The notes beneath the pieces are model-generated. The model had not been told where the DNA came from and made no database searches. It was given only the letters and a program-made list of their open reading frames with translations. Shown here one piece after another: positions 33,664 to 48,768 of a stretch of 64,000 nucleotides of DNA. The stretch comes from Palaeococcus pacificus DY20341. GTDB taxonomy: Archaea > Methanobacteriota_B > Thermococci > Thermococcales > Thermococcaceae. The DNA lies in NCBI RefSeq assembly GCF_000725425.1, contig NZ_CP006019.1, positions 1,116,001-1,180,000 on the forward strand, in the 5' to 3' direction. Position 1 is the stretch's first letter. Each line of letters begins with the position of its first letter. The translations under genes were made by a program, and so were the position numbers.

Positions 33664-34131
33664 CTAAACTTTGGCTTTTCCTTTTCCCTGCTCCTGTAAG
33701 TATTTCTCAAACTCCTTCAAAACTTCCATCTGCTCCTCTGTTTCCACAGCGGAGGGTTTAAGCATCCTAACTTTAACCAAAGCTTCTCTAAGGCTCAGTC
33801 CTTGGGAGTACATTAGATAAGCAACCGCAACAGTGCCGCTCCTCCCACTCCCTCCAAGACAGTGGATTAATACTTTTTTGTCCTTCTTTACCATTGCATC
33901 AATCCACTTCACTATTCCACTTAGCTCGTCTAAAGTTGGAGCAGTGAAATCTTCGATTGGAGCGTAAAGGACTTCAACACCGTTTTCAAGGAGCTCACTT
34001 AGCTCGTAGTAGAGCTCATACTCATAAGTTAGAACAACAACGGCCTGGAATTCCTTCACAACTTGGGGAACATCCTCTGGATAGGGCATGGGTGAGAATG
34101 CAACCCTTTCAGTTATAAATTTCGGAATCAT
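33664..34131 (-). CDS. Dual-specificity protein phosphatase
   Basis: A 155-residue cysteine phosphatase. The catalytic loop HCLGGSGRSGT (Cys-X5-Arg) lies near residue 90, with a general-acid aspartate candidate in APIEDFTAPT. Family members dephosphorylate protein tyrosine or serine/threonine, or RNA 5' ends; the target is unknown. GGGGGTTAAATT precedes ATG. It lies downstream of the metallopeptidase-like gene, whose undisturbed frame would end at 34146, just before this ribosome-binding site. Confidence 0.85.
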   Translation of the reverse strand: MIPKFITERVAFSPMPYPEDVPQVVKEFQAVVVLTYEYELYYELSELLENGVEVLYAPIEDFTAPTLDELSGIVKWIDAMVKKDKKVLIHCLGGSGRSGTVAVAYLMYSQGLSLREALVKVRMLKPSAVETEEQMEVLKEFEKYLQEQGKGKAKV

Positions 34132-37837: not shown

Positions 37838-38042
37838 CTTTTGACCCTCCGAAAGTTTTGTCATAGCTCAATGAGTGTTCTCGTATTAAATACTTTTCGG
37901 TTGTTTTAGTTAAGAGCAATTAGGCACTTTTGTGTTTCCATATGGTTCTCAAAAGAACTGCAATGCCTCTCCATAAATTGCCGTAAGAATGTTAAAACCA
38001 AACTATTTTTAAGTCTAATACTTACATTTGTGTGGTGATATC

Positions 38043-39398
38043 ATGGCAGTTCATCCTATCGATTATCGCTACGGTAGTGAAGAAATGAGAAGAATCTGGG
38101 ATGAGGAGAATAAACTTCAAAAGCTTCTCGATGTTGAAGCGGCTTTAGCTAGAGCTCACGCAAAACTGGGCAACGTTCCCGAAGAGAGTGCAAAGATAAT
38201 AAGCGAAAAAGCTAACACCAAGTATGTAAAAGTTGAGCGCGTTAAGGAGATAGAAGACGAAATTCATCATGATATAATGGCTGTTGTTAAAGCGCTAACT
38301 GAGGTCTGCGGCGAACACGGAAAATACATTCACCTTGGAGCAACTTCCAACGATATAATTGACACCGCAAATGCCCTGCTCATAAAGGAATCTCTTGAAA
38401 TCATACTTAAAGATTTAAGAGAGCTTCGCTCAATCCTAAAAGACCTCGCAAAAGAGCACAAATACACCGTCTGCATTGGGAGAACCCATGGACAGCATGC
38501 TGTACCCACAACTTATGGGATGAAGTTTGCTATATGGCTCGATGAGATTCAAAGGCACATAGAGAGAATCGAAGAAGCTAAGAAGAGAATCCTCGTCGGC
38601 CAGATGAGCGGTGCCGTTGGGACAATGGCGTCTTTCGGTGAAAAAGGCCTTGAAATACAGCGCTTGGTTATGGAAGACCTTGGCCTAAAGCCTGCAAGAA
38701 TTAGCAACCAGCTTATTCAAAGAGATGTTTATGCGGAGTTAATGGCTATCTTAGCTCTAATAGCATCAACGCTCGATAAAATTGGCCTTGAAATAAGAAA
38801 CCTTCAAAGAACAGAGATTTTAGAAATTGGCGAACCCTTTGGAAAGAAGCAGGTGGGTTCATCAACAATGCCTCACAAGAGGAATCCTATAAGAACCGAG
38901 AAGATCTGCGGCCTCGCTAGGGTTATCTACTCAAATGTAATGCCTGCTTTATTAAACAATCCCCTGTGGCACGAGCGCGATTTAACAAACTCATCTGTGG
39001 AGAGGGTTATCCTTCCTGAGAGCTTTGTCCTCTTGGATGAAATGCTCAAAAACATGAAAAAAGTCTTGAGTGGTCTAGACTTCTTCCCTGAGAATATTAA
39101 GCGCAACCTCTACATGACCAACAACCTGATTATGGCAGAGCCTCTAATGCTCAAGCTCACCGAGAGAGGTATGGGAAGGCAGGAGGCTCATGAATTAGTT
39201 AGACAATTGGCTATGAAAGCATTTCACGAGAAGAGAGACCTCATAGATGTTATCAGAGAAGATGAAGAAGTTAGGAAGTACTTAAGTGACGAAGATGTGG
39301 AAAGTCTAAAGCCTGAAAACTACATAGGCCTAGCACCTCAGATAGTGGACAATATTATAGCTTACATAGATGAGAAGGAGAGAGCAGAGAAAGCTTAG
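38043..39398 (+). CDS. purB: Adenylosuccinate lyase
   Basis: A 451-residue fumarase/aspartase-superfamily enzyme acting at two steps of purine synthesis, releasing fumarate from SAICAR and from adenylosuccinate. Family motifs are TSNDIIDTANALL near residue 100, GRTHGQHAVPTTYG, and the signature GSSTMPHKRNP with catalytic serine loop. GGTGATATC before ATG 38043 fixes the start. Length and motifs match PurB. No other purine genes are adjacent. Confidence 0.95.
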   Translation: MAVHPIDYRYGSEEMRRIWDEENKLQKLLDVEAALARAHAKLGNVPEESAKIISEKANTKYVKVERVKEIEDEIHHDIMAVVKALTEVCGEHGKYIHLGATSNDIIDTANALLIKESLEIILKDLRELRSILKDLAKEHKYTVCIGRTHGQHAVPTTYGMKFAIWLDEIQRHIERIEEAKKRILVGQMSGAVGTMASFGEKGLEIQRLVMEDLGLKPARISNQLIQRDVYAELMAILALIASTLDKIGLEIRNLQRTEILEIGEPFGKKQVGSSTMPHKRNPIRTEKICGLARVIYSNVMPALLNNPLWHERDLTNSSVERVILPESFVLLDEMLKNMKKVLSGLDFFPENIKRNLYMTNNLIMAEPLMLKLTERGMGRQEAHELVRQLAMKAFHEKRDLIDVIREDEEVRKYLSDEDVESLKPENYIGLAPQIVDNIIAYIDEKERAEKA

Positions 39399-39457: not shown

Positions 39458-39666
39458 AAAAAGCTTTTATAGTTAATGTCCATTTAATTGCCTTGGTGCT
39501 CTATAGTGAACAGGAGTGAGGGTTTTTGGAGAATCGCCTAAAAGAGGTTTAATTTCAAAGAAGCCGTTTAGTCTATTCTCAGGATTATTGAGCGAAGCTT
39601 TTGTGATTCTTGATCTAAAATCTGTTTTGGGGTGTTTTACACTAACAACTAGCGGAGGTGTTGTTT
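39458..39666 (+). promoter_or_regulatory. Promoter and long leader of the NSS transporter
   Basis: A strong AAAAAGCTTTTATAG element at 39458-39472 predicts a start near 39495, which would leave a leader of about 170 bases before the TTG start at 39667. That is long for this genome. No gene or known riboswitch is seen in it. A nearer weak TATA-like element cannot be excluded. Confidence 0.35.
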
Positions 39667-40959
39667 TTGGCTAGAGAAACCTGGGGAAGTAGGGTAGGTT
39701 TTGTGGCAGCAGCCATAGGAAGTGCAGTAGGTTTAGGAAACATTTGGATGTTCCCATGGAGGGCTGGAAAATACGGTGGAGCGGCGTTTTTAATCCCCTA
39801 CTTGATCCTGCTGTTTGCAGTGGGTGTTATTGCCCTAACCGTCGAGTGGACATTAGGAAGAGGTACTAAAGGTGGGCCAATAGTAGCGTTCCAAAAAGCC
39901 GGTCTTCCAGGAGGCAAATATTTAGGTCTACTTGCCAACATTACAATATTCATGATATTTGCATTCTATTCCCTCGTTTTAGGGTGGATATTGAGGTACT
40001 TCATAGCCTCTTTAACAGGTGAGCTATTACGGATTAACCCAGGAGCATTCTTTGACGGACTAGCATTTAGCAAAGAAGCAATGATATGGCAGTTCGTAGT
40101 TATAATGTTGACAGTCGCAATAGTCGCACTAGGAGTTCAAAAAGGAATAGAAAAGGCCAACAAAATCATGATGCCCGCTTTATTTGTGCTCTTAATCATA
40201 TTGGCGATAAGAAGTGTTACGCTGCCCAACTCATACGAGGGATTGAAGTTCTACCTGCTCCCAGACATCAGCAAAGCTCTAAATGCTGAAACATGGATGA
40301 TTGCACTCTCTCAAATGTTCTTCTCTTTGAGTGTGCTAGGGAATACAATGGTAGTCTATGGCAGCTATTTGAAAGAGAACGATGACATACCTCTATCAGC
40401 AATTGCCACTGCATTTGGAGATACTGCGGTAGCAGTAACAGCAGGATTTTTAATCTTCCCAGCGGTTTTTGCATTTGGTCTTGAACCTGGAGCAGGTCCG
40501 GGATTAGTCTTTGTAACTCTACCAATGGTCTTTCAAAAGATGAGTGGAGGAGCGTTCTTCGGATTTTTGTTCTTCTTGCTGTTGCTCTTCGCGGGACTTT
40601 CATCAACAGTTTCAATGCTTGAAGTATACGTGGACTCAGCAATAACCAACCTAAAAATGGAGAGGAAAAAAGCGGCAATACTTTTGGGATTACTTACTTT
40701 CGCGATAGGTGCTCCAGCAGCTTTAAGCCCCTATTATTTTGAGAAGGTTCTCATAAACATCTCCACAATCTATGTGGGCCCAATTGGAGCTTTAATCGCT
40801 GCTCTAGCACTAATAAAGTTTGGAGTTGAAAGGGCATACGAAGAGATCAAGAAAGGCGCTCTAATAGAGATGCCCTCCCTTTGGAAACCGTGGATTAAGT
40901 ATGTGTATCCAATAGTAATAGTGGTGATATATATTTCACAGTTTGTGCTGGGGGGATGA
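39667..40959 (+). CDS. Sodium-dependent neurotransmitter:sodium symporter (NSS) family transporter
   Basis: A 430-residue membrane protein with about 11 helices of the LeuT fold. The first helix has GFVAAAIGSAVGLGNIWMFPW, which contributes the sodium and substrate sites; GAAFLIPYLILL and SLSVLGNTMVVYGSYL mark later core helices. These carriers take up amino acids with sodium. TTG 39667 follows GGAGGTG at six bases. The next small gene overlaps its stop and encodes a MetS-like subunit, which favours methionine or alanine uptake as in MetPS. Confidence 0.9.
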   Translation: MARETWGSRVGFVAAAIGSAVGLGNIWMFPWRAGKYGGAAFLIPYLILLFAVGVIALTVEWTLGRGTKGGPIVAFQKAGLPGGKYLGLLANITIFMIFAFYSLVLGWILRYFIASLTGELLRINPGAFFDGLAFSKEAMIWQFVVIMLTVAIVALGVQKGIEKANKIMMPALFVLLIILAIRSVTLPNSYEGLKFYLLPDISKALNAETWMIALSQMFFSLSVLGNTMVVYGSYLKENDDIPLSAIATAFGDTAVAVTAGFLIFPAVFAFGLEPGAGPGLVFVTLPMVFQKMSGGAFFGFLFFLLLLFAGLSSTVSMLEVYVDSAITNLKMERKKAAILLGLLTFAIGAPAALSPYYFEKVLINISTIYVGPIGALIAALALIKFGVERAYEEIKKGALIEMPSLWKPWIKYVYPIVIVVIYISQFVLGG

Positions 40960-41066: not shown

Positions 41067-41381
41067 TTTTTCTTTTTGCCTTATTTCTTGGATTAAATGG
41101 GTTTTTAGGGTTTTGTGTTATTTAATAACTTTTTGTAATTATTTGTGTTTGCAGTTAATCTCTGAGTGAGACCTGAAAATTTTACGCATTTTATGTATTA
41201 TTTTTTGAATTATTCTAAATTGTCATTTTAATCATTATATTTATTATTCTTTTTATACTCAATTAATTAGTCAATATGATACCATAAATAAAGGTATAAA
41301 ATGCAAAAAATATACTCTATAAAATTGTATTAACTTTACACACAAGAGTAACATTTATGATTTGAGTGAGGGTAACTGGAG

Positions 41382-41690
41382 ATGAAAGCAGGAGAAAGTG
41401 TATGATATGGCCTGTTAAAAAGTGCCTAAGATTCTTGAAAAACTCAGAGTATGTGGCATCAATTCATGGTTACAATTAATAGTAGTATGATCTGCCAGCA
41501 GCATTACATGAAGCTAACACAATGATATTGTGATTGCAGTAAAGTTAGCTCATTTGCTATTATCATTTAGTTCGATGATCTTTATCAACAACCTCACACT
41601 AACGCACTACATGCCGCGAGAATAATGCGTGGAAGCTACAAAGACTCTCTATTGATTGAAGCATGCATTGCTTTTATATTCAAAAGCTAA
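41382..41690 (+). pseudogene. Decayed HEPN-domain gene (toxin part of a HEPN/MNT pair)
   Basis: Reading across frames, fragments recall a HEPN protein: KKCLRFLKNSEYVAS, then YDLPAALHEANTMIL, and LTHYMPRE, which fits the ...SRY.PRE segment near the end of HEPN proteins. They are broken by several stops and frameshifts. HEPN proteins are RNase toxins paired with nucleotidyltransferase antitoxins. The identification rests on weak by-eye matches; the following relic supports it. Confidence 0.35.
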
Positions 41691-41699
41691 ACTCTAGTT

Positions 41700-42000
41700 T
41701 AGTTAGATGGTATATTAAATTCCTATCATTTTGGATTCTCACTTAAACTTATCCAAAAGATGGTATGAGTCGAAAGTTTAAGCTATAGTGCAAGCGACTA
41801 TGACGTCTTTGCCATGAGTGAGCGGTTTTTAGGTTGCACCTTTAGCTATTGCGCTCAAAGTAGTGGGATCCTATTAACCTTAGATTGTGCATTTTTCGTT
41901 CTCTAAATGTAGACTTTGGAGTTATTGGGTCTGCATATGAGAGATGCTTAAGATGTTCCGCCTTAGGGGAGCTCGTAGTTTGGGGGTTAATTGATTTCAT
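41700..42000 (+). pseudogene. Decayed nucleotidyltransferase (MNT) gene
   Basis: Near 41786-41835 one frame reads SASDYDVFAMSERFLG, matching the S-D-x-D-x-x-V-x-S-E core of minimal nucleotidyltransferase antitoxins. The glycine-serine motif that should precede it is destroyed, and stops follow. It lies directly after the HEPN relic in the order seen in HEPN/MNT modules. The call depends on this one motif and on context. Confidence 0.35.
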
Positions 42001-42480
42001 TGGCATCCTGTATATGCCCCCTTTAAATGTGCATATTTGTTCAAGAGTTTTGGATATAATCAACATTATATCTAAAGTTTATGCATAAACATGTCCATTA
42101 TCATGAAGGAAATGCAACCATTACACTATAAAAAGCTTTGTTGGTAATGAAGTCATGGAGAGGTAGGCGGGAATTTGGTGATTTCTTGGTATGTGGTATC
42201 TTGAGGAATTTTGTCAAATTTTGTCGAGTATATCTGTGCAAACTATTATTTACAATTAACAAGAGTATTAAATCCAAATTTTTTAACATTATAATTAGTA
42301 AAATCTGCTTAAAATTTACTAAAATATCAAATCAAAAAAATAATATATAATAATATTTTTAAATCTGCAATTTTCAATCATTATTAAATAAAACGCAATT
42401 ATAATATTTAATTTTTTAATATACAAACTAGTAAAAAATTGAAGTCAAAAGTGATATATATCATGAAAACAAAAATAAAT
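42001..42480 (+). other. AT-rich non-coding stretch before the TOPRIM gene
   Basis: A very AT-rich 480 bases. Short frames on both strands lack ribosome-binding sites and look random. A TATA-like CTATAAAAAG lies near 42125. The last 100 bases before 42491 should hold the promoter of the TOPRIM gene. The stretch together with 41067-41381 suggests old insertion and decay. Confidence 0.5.
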
Positions 42481-42490
42481 AGGGGATAAA

Positions 42491-43519
42491 ATGGATACAG
42501 GGACACATTTGACTAAAAAAACGACATGTTTGCACCTAACCTCTGTAAAAACGAGAAATATCATAGTTAACTACTCTGATACAGATGTATTGGGTATGAT
42601 ATATGATACATTTAGCGTCCTCCTCAACAGGCAAAGAAAAAACGGTCTAAATGCTTCCCTTAAATTTGAACTAAGCCCTGGAGAGACGCAATTTTTTATT
42701 AGAAAGAAAATTCCGGGCATTTTACACGTTAAATTAGCTGAAAAAGGTGTCAAGTTCACACTGTTGACTAAAAAGGGTAATCTTGTAATCACAGATCTTT
42801 CAAAATTAATCACATTCTTTGGAGCCATTAATCTAAAGTATGATGGCAGTTCTTTGAGAATAGAACATCGTGGAAAATCTCAGGAGTTTATTGAGGTGAG
42901 GGATATAAACCAAGTGGATTTTTCCGTAAACACATACATATTCAAGGATGACCGGTTTATCTTAGTCAAACCTCCACGCCCAGATGCCCCACCTCTCGTT
43001 ACAAAGCTTCTCTACCTTTCAAAGCTTTTTAAAAGAGTATTTTTAGTAGAAGGCGAATCGGATGAGGCAATTTTAAGAGTATTCATGGAAAAGCTTGGCA
43101 TTAAAGAAGACGTCGTATTTTTGTGGTTAGACGGCAAAGACAACCTTACGGAGATCCTTAAGCGAGCCCCTTTACCTCCTAATGTATTGGCTATTGTTGA
43201 TAATGACTACCCCCAAGAAAGTCTCAACATACACAAATGGAAAAGAGGCGAAATTGAGGATTACCTTCTAGTGCCTGATGCTATATCCAAGCTCCTGAAC
43301 AAGAAAGGGATAGATGTTGATAGGGATGAAATTGAAAAAGAGTTGCAACGATTAAGCGGGGCAAAGGGTTCGGCAGTTTTAAAGGGGATATTTAAAAAAT
43401 ATGGTTTGAACTATCTAAAAGTGCGTGATGGGCCGCGTTTAGCGGAATATATTTCAAAAAAAGATATTGATGAGGAGATTGTGGAAGTTATAAAATTTGC
43501 ATATGCACAAAATTTTTAA
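42491..43519 (+). CDS. Stand-alone OLD-type TOPRIM-domain protein
   Basis: A 342-residue protein. The C-terminal half holds a TOPRIM domain: RVFLVEGESDEAILRVFMEKL (about 183-203, catalytic glutamate), FLWLDGKDN (about 213-221), LAIVDNDYP (D-x-D) and GEIEDYLLVPDAI, as in OLD-family nucleases. The SMC-like ATPase that normally precedes it is absent. The first 165 residues form a beta-rich domain I do not recognise. GGGGATA lies just before ATG 42491. Its last codons overlap the palindrome that precedes the MinD operon. A nuclease or defence role is inferred from the domain only. Confidence 0.7.
   Translation: MDTGTHLTKKTTCLHLTSVKTRNIIVNYSDTDVLGMIYDTFSVLLNRQRKNGLNASLKFELSPGETQFFIRKKIPGILHVKLAEKGVKFTLLTKKGNLVITDLSKLITFFGAINLKYDGSSLRIEHRGKSQEFIEVRDINQVDFSVNTYIFKDDRFILVKPPRPDAPPLVTKLLYLSKLFKRVFLVEGESDEAILRVFMEKLGIKEDVVFLWLDGKDNLTEILKRAPLPPNVLAIVDNDYPQESLNIHKWKRGEIEDYLLVPDAISKLLNKKGIDVDRDEIEKELQRLSGAKGSAVLKGIFKKYGLNYLKVRDGPRLAEYISKKDIDEEIVEVIKFAYAQNF
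43489..43511 (+). promoter_or_regulatory. Palindromic site A before the ferredoxin-MinD operon
   Basis: TTATAAAATT (43490-43498) is followed by TGCATATGCA (43498-43507), a perfect 10-bp palindrome within GCATATGCACAAAA. The same 14-mer precedes both NifX-like genes at 55.13 and 55.79 kb. Here it lies just after the TATA-like element, a repressor-type position; a second TATA-like TTTTTAAAC lies downstream. Confidence 0.6.
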
Positions 43520-43553
43520 ACTTTTAGGTTTGCCTAATTCTGGAGGTGTTGAG

Positions 43554-44417
43554 ATGCAGATAGCAATTAGTGGTGGAAAAGGTGGAACCGGGAAATCAAC
43601 GGTTGCTACAAATCTAGCAATTGCTTTAAGAGATTACTTTGATTTGGTCTTAGCTGATTTAGATGTTGAGGCTCCAAACGATCACATTCTTTTAGGTGTT
43701 GAGCTCCAGAACGAAGAGCCGGTAAATTCATTCATGCCCCGTTTTGATTATTCTAAATGTATTAAGTGTCGTAAATGTGCTGAAGTATGTGAAGAGCACG
43801 CAATAATAACAATGAAGGATGGGACTCCTTTTTTAATGCCAACTCTCTGCTCTGGTTGTGCTGCTTGTCAAATAGTCTGCCCCGTTGATGGTGCCATCAT
43901 TGAAGGGCAAAAGCTTATGGGTCACACCTATGCGAGCGAAACGCCCTACAACTTCATACTTATCACAGGTCGGCTTTTGGAAGGGGAAGAAAGGGCAATG
44001 CCTATTGTTGCCACAGCAAAGAAAAGGGCTCAAAGCTTAAACAAAGAGCTTTTGGTAGTTGATACTGCTGCAGGAACGAGCAATACAGTTTCAAAAGCAC
44101 TAGAAGACTCAGAGCTTATAATCGCCGTAACAGAGCCAACTCCTCTTGGCCTGCATGACTTGAGTTTAATCCTTAAGCTTGCGAGGATAATGAATGTGGA
44201 AGCTTGGGTTGTTGTGAATAGGAGCGACCTTGGAGATGTTGAGAATATTGAGGGAGTTGCGGAAGAATACGGCGCTAAAATTGTTGCTGAAATCCCTTAT
44301 AGTGAGGCTATAATTAAGAGCTACGTTAAAGGGGAGCCTATTGTATTGAGCGATTCTCCAGAGGCTGGAATATTCAAAGAACTTGCTGAAAAAGTTGCTG
44401 AGCACTTAAGGAGGTGA
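43554..44417 (+). CDS. MinD-superfamily ATPase with inserted ferredoxin domain (first copy)
   Basis: A 287-residue deviant-Walker ATPase of the MinD/Mrp/NBP35 class. The P-loop is GGKGGTGKSTVATN at residues 7-20. An insert from about 65 to 110 carries two four-cysteine clusters, CIKCRKCAEVC and CSGCAACQIVCP, for two [4Fe-4S] centres. The ATPase then resumes with LLVVDTAAGTSN. Such proteins are thought to act in Fe-S or metal-cofactor assembly. GGAGGTG before ATG 43554 fixes the start. It is followed four bases later by a paralogue, with the RBS spanning the stop. Confidence 0.9.
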   Translation: MQIAISGGKGGTGKSTVATNLAIALRDYFDLVLADLDVEAPNDHILLGVELQNEEPVNSFMPRFDYSKCIKCRKCAEVCEEHAIITMKDGTPFLMPTLCSGCAACQIVCPVDGAIIEGQKLMGHTYASETPYNFILITGRLLEGEERAMPIVATAKKRAQSLNKELLVVDTAAGTSNTVSKALEDSELIIAVTEPTPLGLHDLSLILKLARIMNVEAWVVVNRSDLGDVENIEGVAEEYGAKIVAEIPYSEAIIKSYVKGEPIVLSDSPEAGIFKELAEKVAEHLRR

Positions 44418-44421
44418 GAGC

Positions 44422-45309
44422 ATGCAAGTTGTTATCGCGAGTGGAAAAGGTGGCGTTGGAAAATCAACTATTACGGCTTCGCTGATTTATTTGCTCAAGG
44501 ATAAGTATAAGCTCATAGTGGTTGACGCCGACGCTGATGCTCCCAACCTTCATCTACTCTTTGGTGTTGAGAAGTGGGAGGAACAAAAAGAGTTAGTTGG
44601 AGCAAAAGTTGCGAGGATAAACCAAGAGACCTGCATTCGCTGTGGCATCTGTGCTGAAAGATGTCCTTATGACAGCATAAAGTTTGTAAATGGTAGCTAT
44701 GTTGTGAATGTGCTCACTTGTGAAGGGTGTGGCGTTTGTAAGCTTGTATGTCCTGTCCAGAATACAATAACGCTTGAAGAGGTTCGCTCAGGAATTGTAA
44801 GGAAAACGATAACCAATTATGGATTTCCGCTGATTTCAGCTCAATTGGATGTGGGAAGGCCTAACTCCGGCAAGCTTGTTACGGAAGAAAAAGGGTGGGC
44901 TAAGAAGATTGTGGAAAAGCAAAATTTAGAGCACATGATAGTTGACTCTGCTGCTGGAATTGGCTGTCAAGTTATAGCGAGTGTTGGTGGAGCAGATGTT
45001 GCCATATTAATAGCGGAACCAACTCCGGCTTCACTGAGCGACTTAAAGAGAGTCTACAAAGTTGTGCAGCACTTTAGAATACCAGCGTATTTAATAATCA
45101 ACAAAGCTGACATTAATCTCGGATTTAAAGGCATTCATGAGTTCGCAGAACGAGAAGGAATGCCAATTTTAGGTGAAATTCCTTATGATAGGGCTATTCC
45201 AGACTCAATGGTTCAAATGAAGCCAGTTGTTGAAGCTTTTCCAGATTCGAAGGCAAGCAAAGCTCTAAAAGAAATTGCAAAGACTGTTGAGGAAGAGATT
45301 TTAAGATGA
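44422..45309 (+). CDS. MinD-superfamily ATPase with inserted ferredoxin domain (second copy)
   Basis: A 295-residue paralogue of the preceding protein. The P-loop SGKGGVGKSTITAS lies at residues 6-19. The clusters are CIRCGICAERCP and CEGCGVCKLVCP, both full ferredoxin-type motifs; the first protein lacks the proline after its first cluster. MIVDSAAGIGCQ is the switch region. The two probably form a heterodimer, since MinD-type ATPases work as dimers. AGGAGGTGAG links it to the first gene as one operon. Confidence 0.9.
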   Translation: MQVVIASGKGGVGKSTITASLIYLLKDKYKLIVVDADADAPNLHLLFGVEKWEEQKELVGAKVARINQETCIRCGICAERCPYDSIKFVNGSYVVNVLTCEGCGVCKLVCPVQNTITLEEVRSGIVRKTITNYGFPLISAQLDVGRPNSGKLVTEEKGWAKKIVEKQNLEHMIVDSAAGIGCQVIASVGGADVAILIAEPTPASLSDLKRVYKVVQHFRIPAYLIINKADINLGFKGIHEFAEREGMPILGEIPYDRAIPDSMVQMKPVVEAFPDSKASKALKEIAKTVEEEILR

Positions 45310-46199: not shown

Positions 46200-47300
46200 A
46201 TGGCGAAGTGTGAACTATGTGGTTATGAGTCTGAAGAAATTAGCGAATCAATTGGAGTATGTGTTAACTGCCTTAGGGGAAACCCTCAAAAAGCTTTAAC
46301 AAAAGTTATGAAGTCTCATTTCAAATGGCGCGAGCTAATAAACTTACCTTCTCTTCCTCCTCAAGAGGGAGAACTTTCCTGCAAAATCTGCGTTAATGAG
46401 TGCAAAATTCCAAGAGATAGCTCTGGTTACTGTGGTATAATATGGAACAAAGGGGGAAGGCTAACAACGATAACTGGAAGCTTTAACAAGGCTTACTTGC
46501 ATTGGTATCTCGATCCTCATCCAACCAACTGCGTCGCTGAGCCCGTTTGCCCGGAGAGAAAACATTATGGCTTTTACAATTTGGCCGTTTTCTTTGCAGG
46601 CTGTAACTTAGATTGCCTTTTTTGCCAGAACGTTCAGCACAAATACATGATAAAGGATGGGAAAGTAGATCTTCAGGAGGGCATTGTTTTAAGTTTTAGT
46701 GAGCTTTCAAATGTGGCGATGAGGAGTAAAGTTTCCTGCATCTGCTATTTTGGAGGAGATCCAACGCCGCACAGCATCTATGCACTTAAAGTTTCGAGAG
46801 AAGTTCAAAAGCGTTCAAAAGAAGGCAATGTAACTAAAAGGATTTGCTGGGAGACAAATGGCTTAGAGAATCCAAAGATAATGAAGGAGATGGCAAAGCT
46901 TAGCCTTGAAAGTGGGGGGATTGTTAAGATTGACTGGAAAGCTTACACATCAAGCATTTACCAAGCTTTAACAGGCATAAACGGAGAAAAAGCTCTAAGA
47001 AGAGTTAAAGAGAATGTTAAGCTGCTTATAGAGATGGGTAAGGAAAGAGAACTTCCGCTTTTAGTCGTTAGCACTTTGGTTGTTCCGCATTACATTGATG
47101 AATTTGAAGTGTATAATATAGCTAAATACATAGCTGAGCTAAATCCAGAGACGCCTTATGTTCTGCTGGCTTTTGCTCCACAGCATTTAATGCACGATGT
47201 TCCAACCACAAGCAGAAAGCAGATGGAAAGTGTTTACAAAGCCGCTTTAGATGCTGGATTGGGGAGAGTTTACATTGGAAATATCTGGCTACTCAGATAA
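46200..47300 (+). CDS. Radical SAM protein of the PflA-like/AmmeMemoRadiSam group
   Basis: A 366-residue radical SAM enzyme. An N-terminal zinc-ribbon-like segment (CELC and CVNC within the first 30 residues) is followed by CKIC...CKIPRDSSGYCG and the radical SAM cluster motif GCNLDCLFCQN, with CYFGGDPTPH after it. This combination matches the COG1180-type activase-like proteins, which in many archaea occur with MEMO and AMMECR1 proteins. The substrate is unknown. ATG 46200 has no clear Shine-Dalgarno site. The end overlaps the convergent DUF134 gene by 12 bases. Confidence 0.85.
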   Translation: MAKCELCGYESEEISESIGVCVNCLRGNPQKALTKVMKSHFKWRELINLPSLPPQEGELSCKICVNECKIPRDSSGYCGIIWNKGGRLTTITGSFNKAYLHWYLDPHPTNCVAEPVCPERKHYGFYNLAVFFAGCNLDCLFCQNVQHKYMIKDGKVDLQEGIVLSFSELSNVAMRSKVSCICYFGGDPTPHSIYALKVSREVQKRSKEGNVTKRICWETNGLENPKIMKEMAKLSLESGGIVKIDWKAYTSSIYQALTGINGEKALRRVKENVKLLIEMGKERELPLLVVSTLVVPHYIDEFEVYNIAKYIAELNPETPYVLLAFAPQHLMHDVPTTSRKQMESVYKAALDAGLGRVYIGNIWLLR

Positions 47301-47636
47301 TTCCTCTCCTTTTGGAACTTCGTTTCCCTGAGCTAAAATTATCAGCTCCCTTCCTTCAACAAGCATTTGAGCAACTTTCTTCCTTGCTGAGCTTAAAGCT
47401 CTCCAAATTGTTCCTCTCGAAACGCCCATTCTTTTTCCAGCCTCTTCTTGCGTTAAGCCCTCATAATCCACCAATCTCAAAGCCTCAAACTCCTCATAGG
47501 TCATAAAAATCGGTGGTTGAGGAGGCCCAATAGGTGGACGGGCTGGATAGAAGTGCTTAATTTCCGGAATAACCCCAATGAAACGCATCTTTCTCCTTCT
47601 GCCTCTCCCTTTACCTCTTCCCATTCCCCAAGGCAT
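47289..47636 (-). CDS. DUF134 DNA-binding protein
   Basis: A 115-residue protein of the DUF134 family. The N-terminus is Gly/Arg-rich (GMGRGKGRGRRR). A Pro-rich segment follows, then a sigma-70-region-4-like HTH: MTYEEFEALRLVDYEGLTQ, EEAGKRMGVSRGTIWRALSSAR. Members are often encoded with NifX-like and MinD-ferredoxin proteins, which both occur in this window, so a regulatory role in that set is plausible. GGTG before ATG 47636 supports the start. A TATA-like CTCTATAAATCC lies upstream; the shared palindrome is not seen at this promoter. Confidence 0.85.
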   Translation of the reverse strand: MPWGMGRGKGRGRRRKMRFIGVIPEIKHFYPARPPIGPPQPPIFMTYEEFEALRLVDYEGLTQEEAGKRMGVSRGTIWRALSSARKKVAQMLVEGRELIILAQGNEVPKGEELSE

Positions 47637-47755
47637 TTTAACACCAAACAAGAACTCTCATTTAGGATTTATAGAGGTTTCCCTTAATATCTCGAGAAAA
47701 TGGACATGCCTTAAGAAAGAAGTTCCATTAATTAAACAACTTAAGGGCAAAACTT

Positions 47756-48420: not shown

Positions 48421-48768
48421 ATGAAAAAATTATTAGCTGTTATCTCGGTATTACTTATAGTGGGAGCAGTGCTCGCTTGGAACTATGTAGGGGATAAAGA
48501 AGTGATTACGTTGAGGGCCACCTTTAGGATGGGCGGTGTGAGCTATAAAGGTTATGAAATGCGTGGAGATACGCTGATATTCAAATTCGAGCGCAAAGGT
48601 GATGTCTTTATCCAAGTAATAACCCAAAAAGAGGTCACTGAGAGAATCAAGGGAAGTCCAAGCAGAGTCCTCATGGAGGTAAGCACCAACGGGCGTGCTG
48701 AGGTGTATGAGGCCAGGCTGGTGGAGGAAGATGGAGAAAGAAAAATTTACGAAGCCTCAGAGCTTTGA
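48421..48768 (+). CDS. Small exported or membrane-anchored protein of unknown function
   Basis: A 115-residue protein with an N-terminal hydrophobic signal or anchor (about residues 3-20) followed by a beta-rich domain. No family was recognised. GGTGAAAGC precedes the ATG. Its 3' end overlaps the start of a small zinc-finger gene by 38 bases in another frame, suggesting coupling. Confidence 0.55.
   Translation: MKKLLAVISVLLIVGAVLAWNYVGDKEVITLRATFRMGGVSYKGYEMRGDTLIFKFERKGDVFIQVITQKEVTERIKGSPSRVLMEVSTNGRAEVYEARLVEEDGERKIYEASEL

Follow-up and report, generated by a model that had tools for sequence, protein, structure and literature searches.

OLD-family nucleases and related TOPRIM proteins

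The OLD family is a known antiviral group of nucleases whose activity is held to be governed by the ATPase half. A natural variant that is conserved yet has no ATPase motifs would reveal the minimal requirements of the nuclease and what takes over from the gate. In class 1 and class 2 (GajA) members an N-terminal part precedes the OLD-type TOPRIM domain, whose characteristic residues are a glutamate, a DxD and an ExE motif and a later lysine. In the class 2 enzyme of B. pseudomallei (Bp OLD) E400, D455, D457, E404, T506 and E508 coordinate two metals, with K562 assisting the site, and according to a figure legend of the same report the C-terminal region alone has metal-dependent nuclease activity (PMC6755086), so the ATPase half is not strictly needed in this enzyme. 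Conversely, in Cran1, the class 5 protein of Sulfolobales, deletion of the ATPase domain or site mutation abolished nuclease activity (PMC12796447), and an OLD protein lacking the ATPase motifs might therefore be inactive by itself. PARIS systems (class 4) are described as carrying a full ATPase that is either separate or fused (PMC10568477). Short stand-alone TOPRIM proteins of the DUF3226/PH0156 type also occur in Thermococcales, but in these the TOPRIM domain starts at about residue 1 and is not preceded by an N-terminal domain.

Here we describe a TOPRIM protein of the deep-sea archaeon Palaeococcus pacificus that has the residue set and the domain order of OLD classes 1 and 2, but differs from the family in lacking the Walker A, strict Walker B and switch motifs and in its length of about 340 residues, compared to 599–661 residues in 10 OLD-like control proteins, two of which are cut.

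A reduced OLD-type TOPRIM gene in Palaeococcus

The window, a 64-kb stretch of the P. pacificus DY20341 chromosome spanning positions 1,116,001–1,180,000, contains the following gene and protein parts:

42491..43519, + strand: TOPRIM gene, 342 aa, reduced OLD-type TOPRIM protein (ORF, intact relative, codon-position selection)
42491..42985, + strand: N-terminal domain, residues 1–165, beta-rich, probable reduced ABC/SMC-type ATPase head (motif test, predicted model)
43028..43276, + strand: TOPRIM core, residues 180–262, with E187, D191, D237, D239, E254 and E256 (Pfam, PADLOC, profile comparison, AriB/OLD structures)
43277..43516, + strand: C-terminal helical part, residues 263–342, with an invariant YLKVRDGPR (two-copy alignment, OLD lysine spacing)

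The ORF is ATG-started and its frame opens only 12 bases before the ATG, while the 1.4 kb further upstream hold short frames only. One other copy was found, an intact frame of 317 aa with 44% identity in a second genome of the genus (G001). Across 317 aligned codons the two copies differ at 0.45, 0.34 and 0.68 of the first, second and third codon positions, respectively. Most change falls on third positions, which indicates purifying selection on the protein. Its GC content is 37.1% in P. pacificus, whose genome has 43.04% (PMC4574382), and 57.7% in G001, where the surrounding region has 54.3%. This tracking of each host fits vertical descent of the gene, beside the dif site described below, from an ancestor shared by both Palaeococcus genomes. 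We also considered a fragment or frameshifted piece of a longer OLD gene, an outcome that the sequence-only reading of this DNA had named among those that would overturn its interpretation. This was rejected, because the upstream region lacks long frames, the relative falls in the same length class and the same short architecture has been kept in two diverged genomes.

Distribution among Thermococcales

By protein search the TOPRIM gene is present in two of the 94 genomes of the order, P. pacificus included, and in two of 115 in the phylum, the second holder being G001. G002, the other Palaeococcus genome (78% complete), was of no use here, as its purB contig breaks off within that gene. Two scans of genome contigs with the full and the N-terminal alignment, which detect only relatives that share short conserved peptides and hence close ones, gave 79 and 124 pattern stretches, none of which was confirmed as a further relative. 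The same holds for two protein scans of viral contigs (10 and 107 stretches, none confirmed), and tblastn against plasmids and phages gave no match up to an E-value of 0.1 for the P. pacificus protein and of 1 for the G001 protein. Searches of PHROGs (no match better than E = 0.1) and of a viral structure library (none under E = 0.001) were likewise negative.

A profile built from the two copies reached 17 places in 16 of the 94 genomes at E-values up to 1, namely the two copies themselves and 15 weak places. Thirteen of the latter were inspected by translation (L013 and L016 were left out): L005–L007 are OLD proteins matched via their TOPRIM domain, and the other 10 looked unrelated when judged by eye. 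The Pfam family OLD-like_TOPRIM (PF20469) has 20 places in 17 of the 94 genomes, including both reduced copies; 11 are in OLD-like proteins (10 frames of 602–695 aa and one of 181 aa) and seven in shorter frames of 227–242 aa. None of these 18 was recovered by the TOPRIM protein search at E = 0.001, and three (in G023, G083, and G073) were recovered by the profile search with E-values of 0.002–0.02. The argument on this protein is carried mostly by two sequences.

The TOPRIM protein diverges much faster than its neighbor purB, which is 84% identical in the same two genomes. The two genomes also share a 115-aa protein without Pfam match (window 48421–48768; locus L003, 8784–9131) that is 52% identical. 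It overlaps the TOPRIM stop codon by 4 bases (ATGA) in G001, in the manner of a coupled operon, and lies about 5 kb downstream of the TOPRIM gene in P. pacificus.

The TOPRIM half and its predicted active site

The assignment to the OLD type with its acidic motifs, as first read from the sequence, was borne out by several profile comparisons. OLD-like_TOPRIM matches residues 181–239 (E = 9.3e-6; 26.5 bits at a cut-off of 23.2), and the G001 copy reaches 20.1 bits, just under that cut-off. With hhalign the best of five groupings, eight long OLD-like proteins of Thermococcales, aligned to residues 179–281 with E = 7.9e-10, and the four smaller groupings gave E-values from 2.2e-7 to 7.4e-4. The motifs LVEGESD (185), AIVDND (234) and RGEIEDYL (252) each have a counterpart in the G001 copy. 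The best PADLOC profiles are AriAB (E = 1.9e-7) and AriB (E = 3.4e-7). Pfam DUF4435 stays at 15.7 bits, below its cut-off of 27, and DUF3226, the family of the stand-alone TOPRIM proteins, reaches only E = 0.17. Structural comparison of a predicted whole-protein model (see below) agrees with these assignments: AriB of PARIS (8ux9, Z = 8.3) is the best match for the TOPRIM part, the aligned ranges of GajA (8j4t, Z = 6.6, 233 residues) and of the OLD protein of Thermus (6p74, Z = 5.9, 231 residues) span both domains, and GajA is the sole Foldseek match under E = 0.001. The stand-alone type scores lower (2p62, Z = 4.8).

Both copies share seven invariant residues, E187, D191, D237, D239, E254, E256 and K310. 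Judged by the order and spacing of the motifs rather than by residue-level structural alignment, E187, D191, D237, D239, E256 and K310 correspond to E400, E404, D455, D457, E508 and K562 of Bp OLD. The two proteins share the position of the second acidic residue at +4 (D191/E404) and of the lysine 54 residues after E256 or E508; E254 sits where Bp OLD has T506. The TOPRIM half thus has, as judged from its motifs, the catalytic positions expected of the OLD type. Its distance of 17 residues between DxD and ExE is shorter than the 51 of Bp OLD and close to the 18 calculated from the residue numbers given for Cran1, which is likewise archaeal. Cran1 differs, however, in having a leucine at the first DxD position and the second acidic residue at +3 instead of +4, besides its required ATPase domain (PMC12796447).

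Gene surroundings and the possibility of a defense role

The neighborhood of the TOPRIM gene is made up of these features:

38028..39398, + strand: purB, a frequent dif neighbor and synteny anchor (Pfam; dif proximity of the purB cluster)
39658–40959: sodium symporter, upstream of the dif island
41067..42490, no strand: non-coding dif island of 1.4 kb with AT-rich ends (short ORFs only; composition)
42049..42076, + strand: dif site for XerA chromosome-dimer resolution (pattern match with 0 mismatches; 25/25)
43554..45309, + strand: two MinD/ParA-like NTPases with ferredoxin domains (Pfam)

Downstream of the NTPases follow a protein without Pfam match, a radical SAM protein and DUF134. The MinD/ParA-like cluster also occurs near dif in genomes without the TOPRIM gene, and the NTPases are not obviously part of a TOPRIM system. 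The leader of the first of them (43497–43560), which would translate as HKIFKLLGxPNSGG, recurs in L098; the TOPRIM gene therefore reaches with its end into conserved DNA ahead of its neighbor.

A defense effector had been suggested as one possibility from the sequence, which was also read as having toxin-antitoxin relics beside the gene; we considered such an effector in the form of an abortive infection or anti-plasmid protein comparable to PARIS AriB or Gabija GajA. The relics were not confirmed by a scan of the surroundings: none of 30 proteins searched against Pfam between 31.7 and 56.6 kb (not every ORF there) has a toxin-antitoxin family as main match. The nearest likenesses are the DUF134 protein (47292–47651), with a sub-cut-off match to an Xre-antitoxin HTH, and a dual-specificity phosphatase (33667–34131) that also matches a polymorphic-toxin phosphatase domain. 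Nor was an AriA-type ABC ATPase, an UvrD-like helicase or a reverse transcriptase recognized among the 30 proteins, five of which had no family assigned at E = 0.01, and PADLOC on 10 neighbors matched two DNA-binding proteins and nothing else. The gene thus differs from PARIS both in its own reduced N-terminal domain and in its surroundings, where no AriA was recognized by Pfam or, among the 10 neighbors, by PADLOC, and from Gabija in that MinD/ParA-like NTPases occupy the downstream position instead of the UvrD-like helicase GajB. One of the PADLOC matches assigns mad1 to DUF134 (E = 5e-4); in the other, ten Csa3/CARF/CasR models recognize an ArsR-like HTH protein 5 kb upstream, Csa3 best (E = 1.1e-9). 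The latter could be counted in favor of a defense context, but both probably reflect shared DNA-binding folds.

Context thus lends the proposal little support, and its case is further reduced by the lack of relatives in the phages, plasmids and viral contigs searched and by GC content and synteny, which mark a resident gene. Still, the best profiles and structural matches are those of AriAB, AriB and GajA, and the protein evolves fast. For these two reasons we place a role in defense ahead of one at the chromosome terminus and consider it a serious candidate, if somewhat short of an even chance.

The N-terminal domain

The sequence-only reading had seen the TOPRIM core follow about 165 residues of an unrecognized beta-rich domain in place of the usual ATPase, and had raised the prospect of a new type of nuclease. 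By sequence the domain is indeed unrecognized: residues 1–180 match nothing in Pfam at E-values up to 10, and residues 1–165 have no match beyond chance in NCBIfam, among PDB sequences or in hhalign against OLD-like proteins. The absence of the ATPase motifs was confirmed as well. Using identical patterns for all proteins, Walker A, strict Walker B and the.THS switch were found in neither of the two copies, whereas 10 long OLD-like controls showed Walker A in eight, strict Walker B in all 10 and the switch in all 10; the two controls without Walker A are truncated at the edge of the locus. When the Walker B pattern was relaxed, it matched the G001 copy once (MAVVREE, 107), at a place not conserved in the P. 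pacificus protein, and the ABC signature pattern matched only one of the 10 controls. At the expected place of the P-loop, located by eye, the copies read NYSDTDV (P. pacificus) and NPTEEDV (G001), leading into a helix.

Structure prediction, on the other hand, gave the domain a likely, if weak, family resemblance. The whole-protein model, computed from two sequences, has a pLDDT of 69.0, being one of five predictions of which the others had 47.9–56.5, and its residues 311–342 are of low confidence; the N-terminal domain modeled alone, also from two sequences, reached 70.5 (one of five; others 42.6–49.0). Residues 8–160 of the whole-protein model align with Rad50 heads (4ncj, Z = 7.2, 133 residues, rmsd 3.8). 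For the domain-alone model, heads of SMC, RecF and GajA type make up 21 of the top 23 matches over 126–152 residues, with Z values of 4.3–6.0 that fall in the “common” range of the tool, under the level that settles a fold; a handful of proteins (cohesin, Smc5/6) recurs in many of these matches, and the RecF match is an integrative model. Foldseek with this domain alone gave no match under E = 0.001. On the strength of the predicted models, we consider the domain probably a reduced ABC/SMC-type ATPase head that has lost its motifs rather than a new domain, and hold this with reasonable assurance. The reverse assumption, a beta-rich domain unrelated to ABC ATPases that has been fused to an OLD-type TOPRIM, would agree with the failure of all sequence searches and the middling Z values, but nearly every match that spans the bulk of the domain is an SMC/RecF/GajA head, even if these are repetitive, and the alignments to GajA and OLD extend across both domains; it thus seems rather unlikely. 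With a resemblance to ATPase heads, the suggested new nuclease type weakens to a reduced variant of a known one: probably the lineage is known and the form reduced, without a new combination of domains.

The dif site and its non-coding island

When the P. pacificus and G001 loci are compared, the best conserved stretch of upstream non-coding DNA is a 41-bp palindrome at 42036–42076 (87.8%), followed by a weaker, AT-rich match (62.7% over 169 columns, 42265–42424). The palindrome includes GGATATAATCAACATTATATCTAAA at 42052–42076, which we take to be the XerA dif site. Thermococcales dif sites have been described as 28 bp long and flanked by inverted repeats that possibly bind a partner (Cortez et al., 2010; PMC2958812), and as inverted 11-nt arms around a 6-nt spacer (PMC8371274). 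The P. pacificus site has symmetric arms and 0 mismatches, scores 25/25 in the 64-kb window, where the next best place has 21/25, and the genome encodes one tyrosine recombinase (a 281-aa open frame at 850,828). Elsewhere in this genome there is one dif-like place, at 785,262, with 2 mismatches and without symmetric arms. G001 has a recombinase frame of 281 aa as well, plus a second match in a frame of 722 aa. With up to 3 mismatches the pattern occurs in 78 of the 94 genomes, which is an upper figure because a reversed control pattern matches eight of the 94 and in several genomes every place found carries 3 mismatches.

Between dif and the start of the TOPRIM gene lie about 0.4 kb in P. pacificus and about 1.0 kb in G001; side and orientation relative to the site agree in both. 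No second dif copy flanking the gene was found in the window or in L003, so that nothing points to a recent integration by Xer. In a set of 52 Thermococcales dif loci (50 fetched loci plus P. pacificus and G001), the purB cluster is no more than four ORFs from dif in 38. AT-rich walls stand on both sides of dif, about 450–750 bases out, with a mean drop in GC of 11–15 points (SD 11–13; 52 loci). The gap around dif between ORFs of at least 100 aa is at least 1.3 kb in 20 of the 52 loci and less than 0.7 kb in 14, and in five an ORF call overlaps dif. Rfam gave a single match on the P. pacificus island, at E = 0.29 and far below the cut-off.

Proposed activity and cellular role

We propose that the protein is a nuclease that depends on metal but not on ATP, and that it represents a reduced, genus-specific variant of the OLD/PARIS type whose N-terminal half is an ATPase-head remnant, and give this proposal as a whole a little better than an even chance. 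The C-terminal half, with its TOPRIM and helical parts, descends from the OLD/GajA/AriB lineage, and the N-terminal half would most likely be what is left of the ATPase head, with part of the sheet kept and the P-loop, arms, Walker B and switch lost. Such a protein, having no ATP gate, would be expected to cut or nick DNA using two metal ions; by analogy with GajA, Bp OLD and Cran1, nicking of DNA is the more likely activity, and RNA would be a less likely substrate. The N-terminal part may serve in dimer formation or DNA contact. The cellular roles discussed here, in defense or at the terminus, are compatible with this mechanism and no alternatives to it.

The position of the gene allows for a nuclease or topology factor of the chromosome terminus whose partner at the dif island would be XerA/dif or SMC. 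Besides the adjacency to dif in both genomes, on the same side, this idea draws on Cran1, an archaeal OLD protein with nickase activity that the cell requires to progress through its cycle but apparently does not require for defense (PMC12796447), and on the suggestion that unknown partners may bind the dif-flanking repeats (Cortez et al., 2010; PMC2958812). The adjacency is, however, a single evolutionary event noticed after the fact, and the gene is absent from 92 of the 94 genomes although 78 have a dif-like match. Moreover, other Thermococcales carry lineage-specific ORFs directly beside dif, which may mean no more than that accessory DNA accumulates at the site, an objection countered in part by the genome paper of P. 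pacificus, which reports neither mobile elements nor integrases (PMC4574382). Among the papers listed by a literature search, none linked a TOPRIM nuclease to archaeal dif, and Palaeococcus combined with TOPRIM gave one unrelated paper. In Thermococcus kodakarensis SMC reportedly stalls at dif together with TrmBL2, to which we give no weight. On the whole a terminus function seems improbable, and marginally more so in the specific form in which the protein would be recruited to the terminus and act at or near XerA/dif, for example by nicking DNA held by SMC or dif proteins during dimer resolution. Adjacency to dif in both genomes and the cell-cycle report on Cran1 nevertheless make a chromosome role directly testable, and such a role, if true, would put a defense nuclease to use in chromosome maintenance.

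Least probable of all is that the gene is a relic in decay, now functionless, of a defense protein of full-length OLD or fused AriAB type: the loss of ATPase motifs, the fast divergence and the very narrow distribution would be expected of it, but both frames are intact, changes are in excess at third positions, the catalytic positions are invariant, and a decaying gene would hardly keep one reduced architecture in two diverged genomes.

Other sequences beside dif in Thermococcales

Independently of the TOPRIM gene, a conserved stretch consisting of TTAATTTTACCACTATACATAATTG and then TCATATAA was found in 11 of the 94 genomes, belonging to three genera (L081, L095, L096, L099 and seven more), and in 10 of these genomes it falls on a dif match. 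It flanks dif in six of the nine fetched loci with TC arms and also in one locus with GG arms (L087), and no exact copy is present in the viral contigs; it could be the end of a dif-integrated element or a native flank. In L096 and L081 an orphan ORF (234 and 261 aa, respectively) begins at a distance of 12 bp from a variant dif, and the two ORFs are related. The one in L096 has a weak Pfam match to DpnII-MboI (E = 0.034, below cut-off) and is possibly a restriction-like nuclease. Finally, in four genomes (L089 and three further loci) the second ORF from dif encodes a plasmid-type ParA (260 aa) that is followed by a protein of 109–112 aa, an arrangement that suggests integrated plasmid genes.
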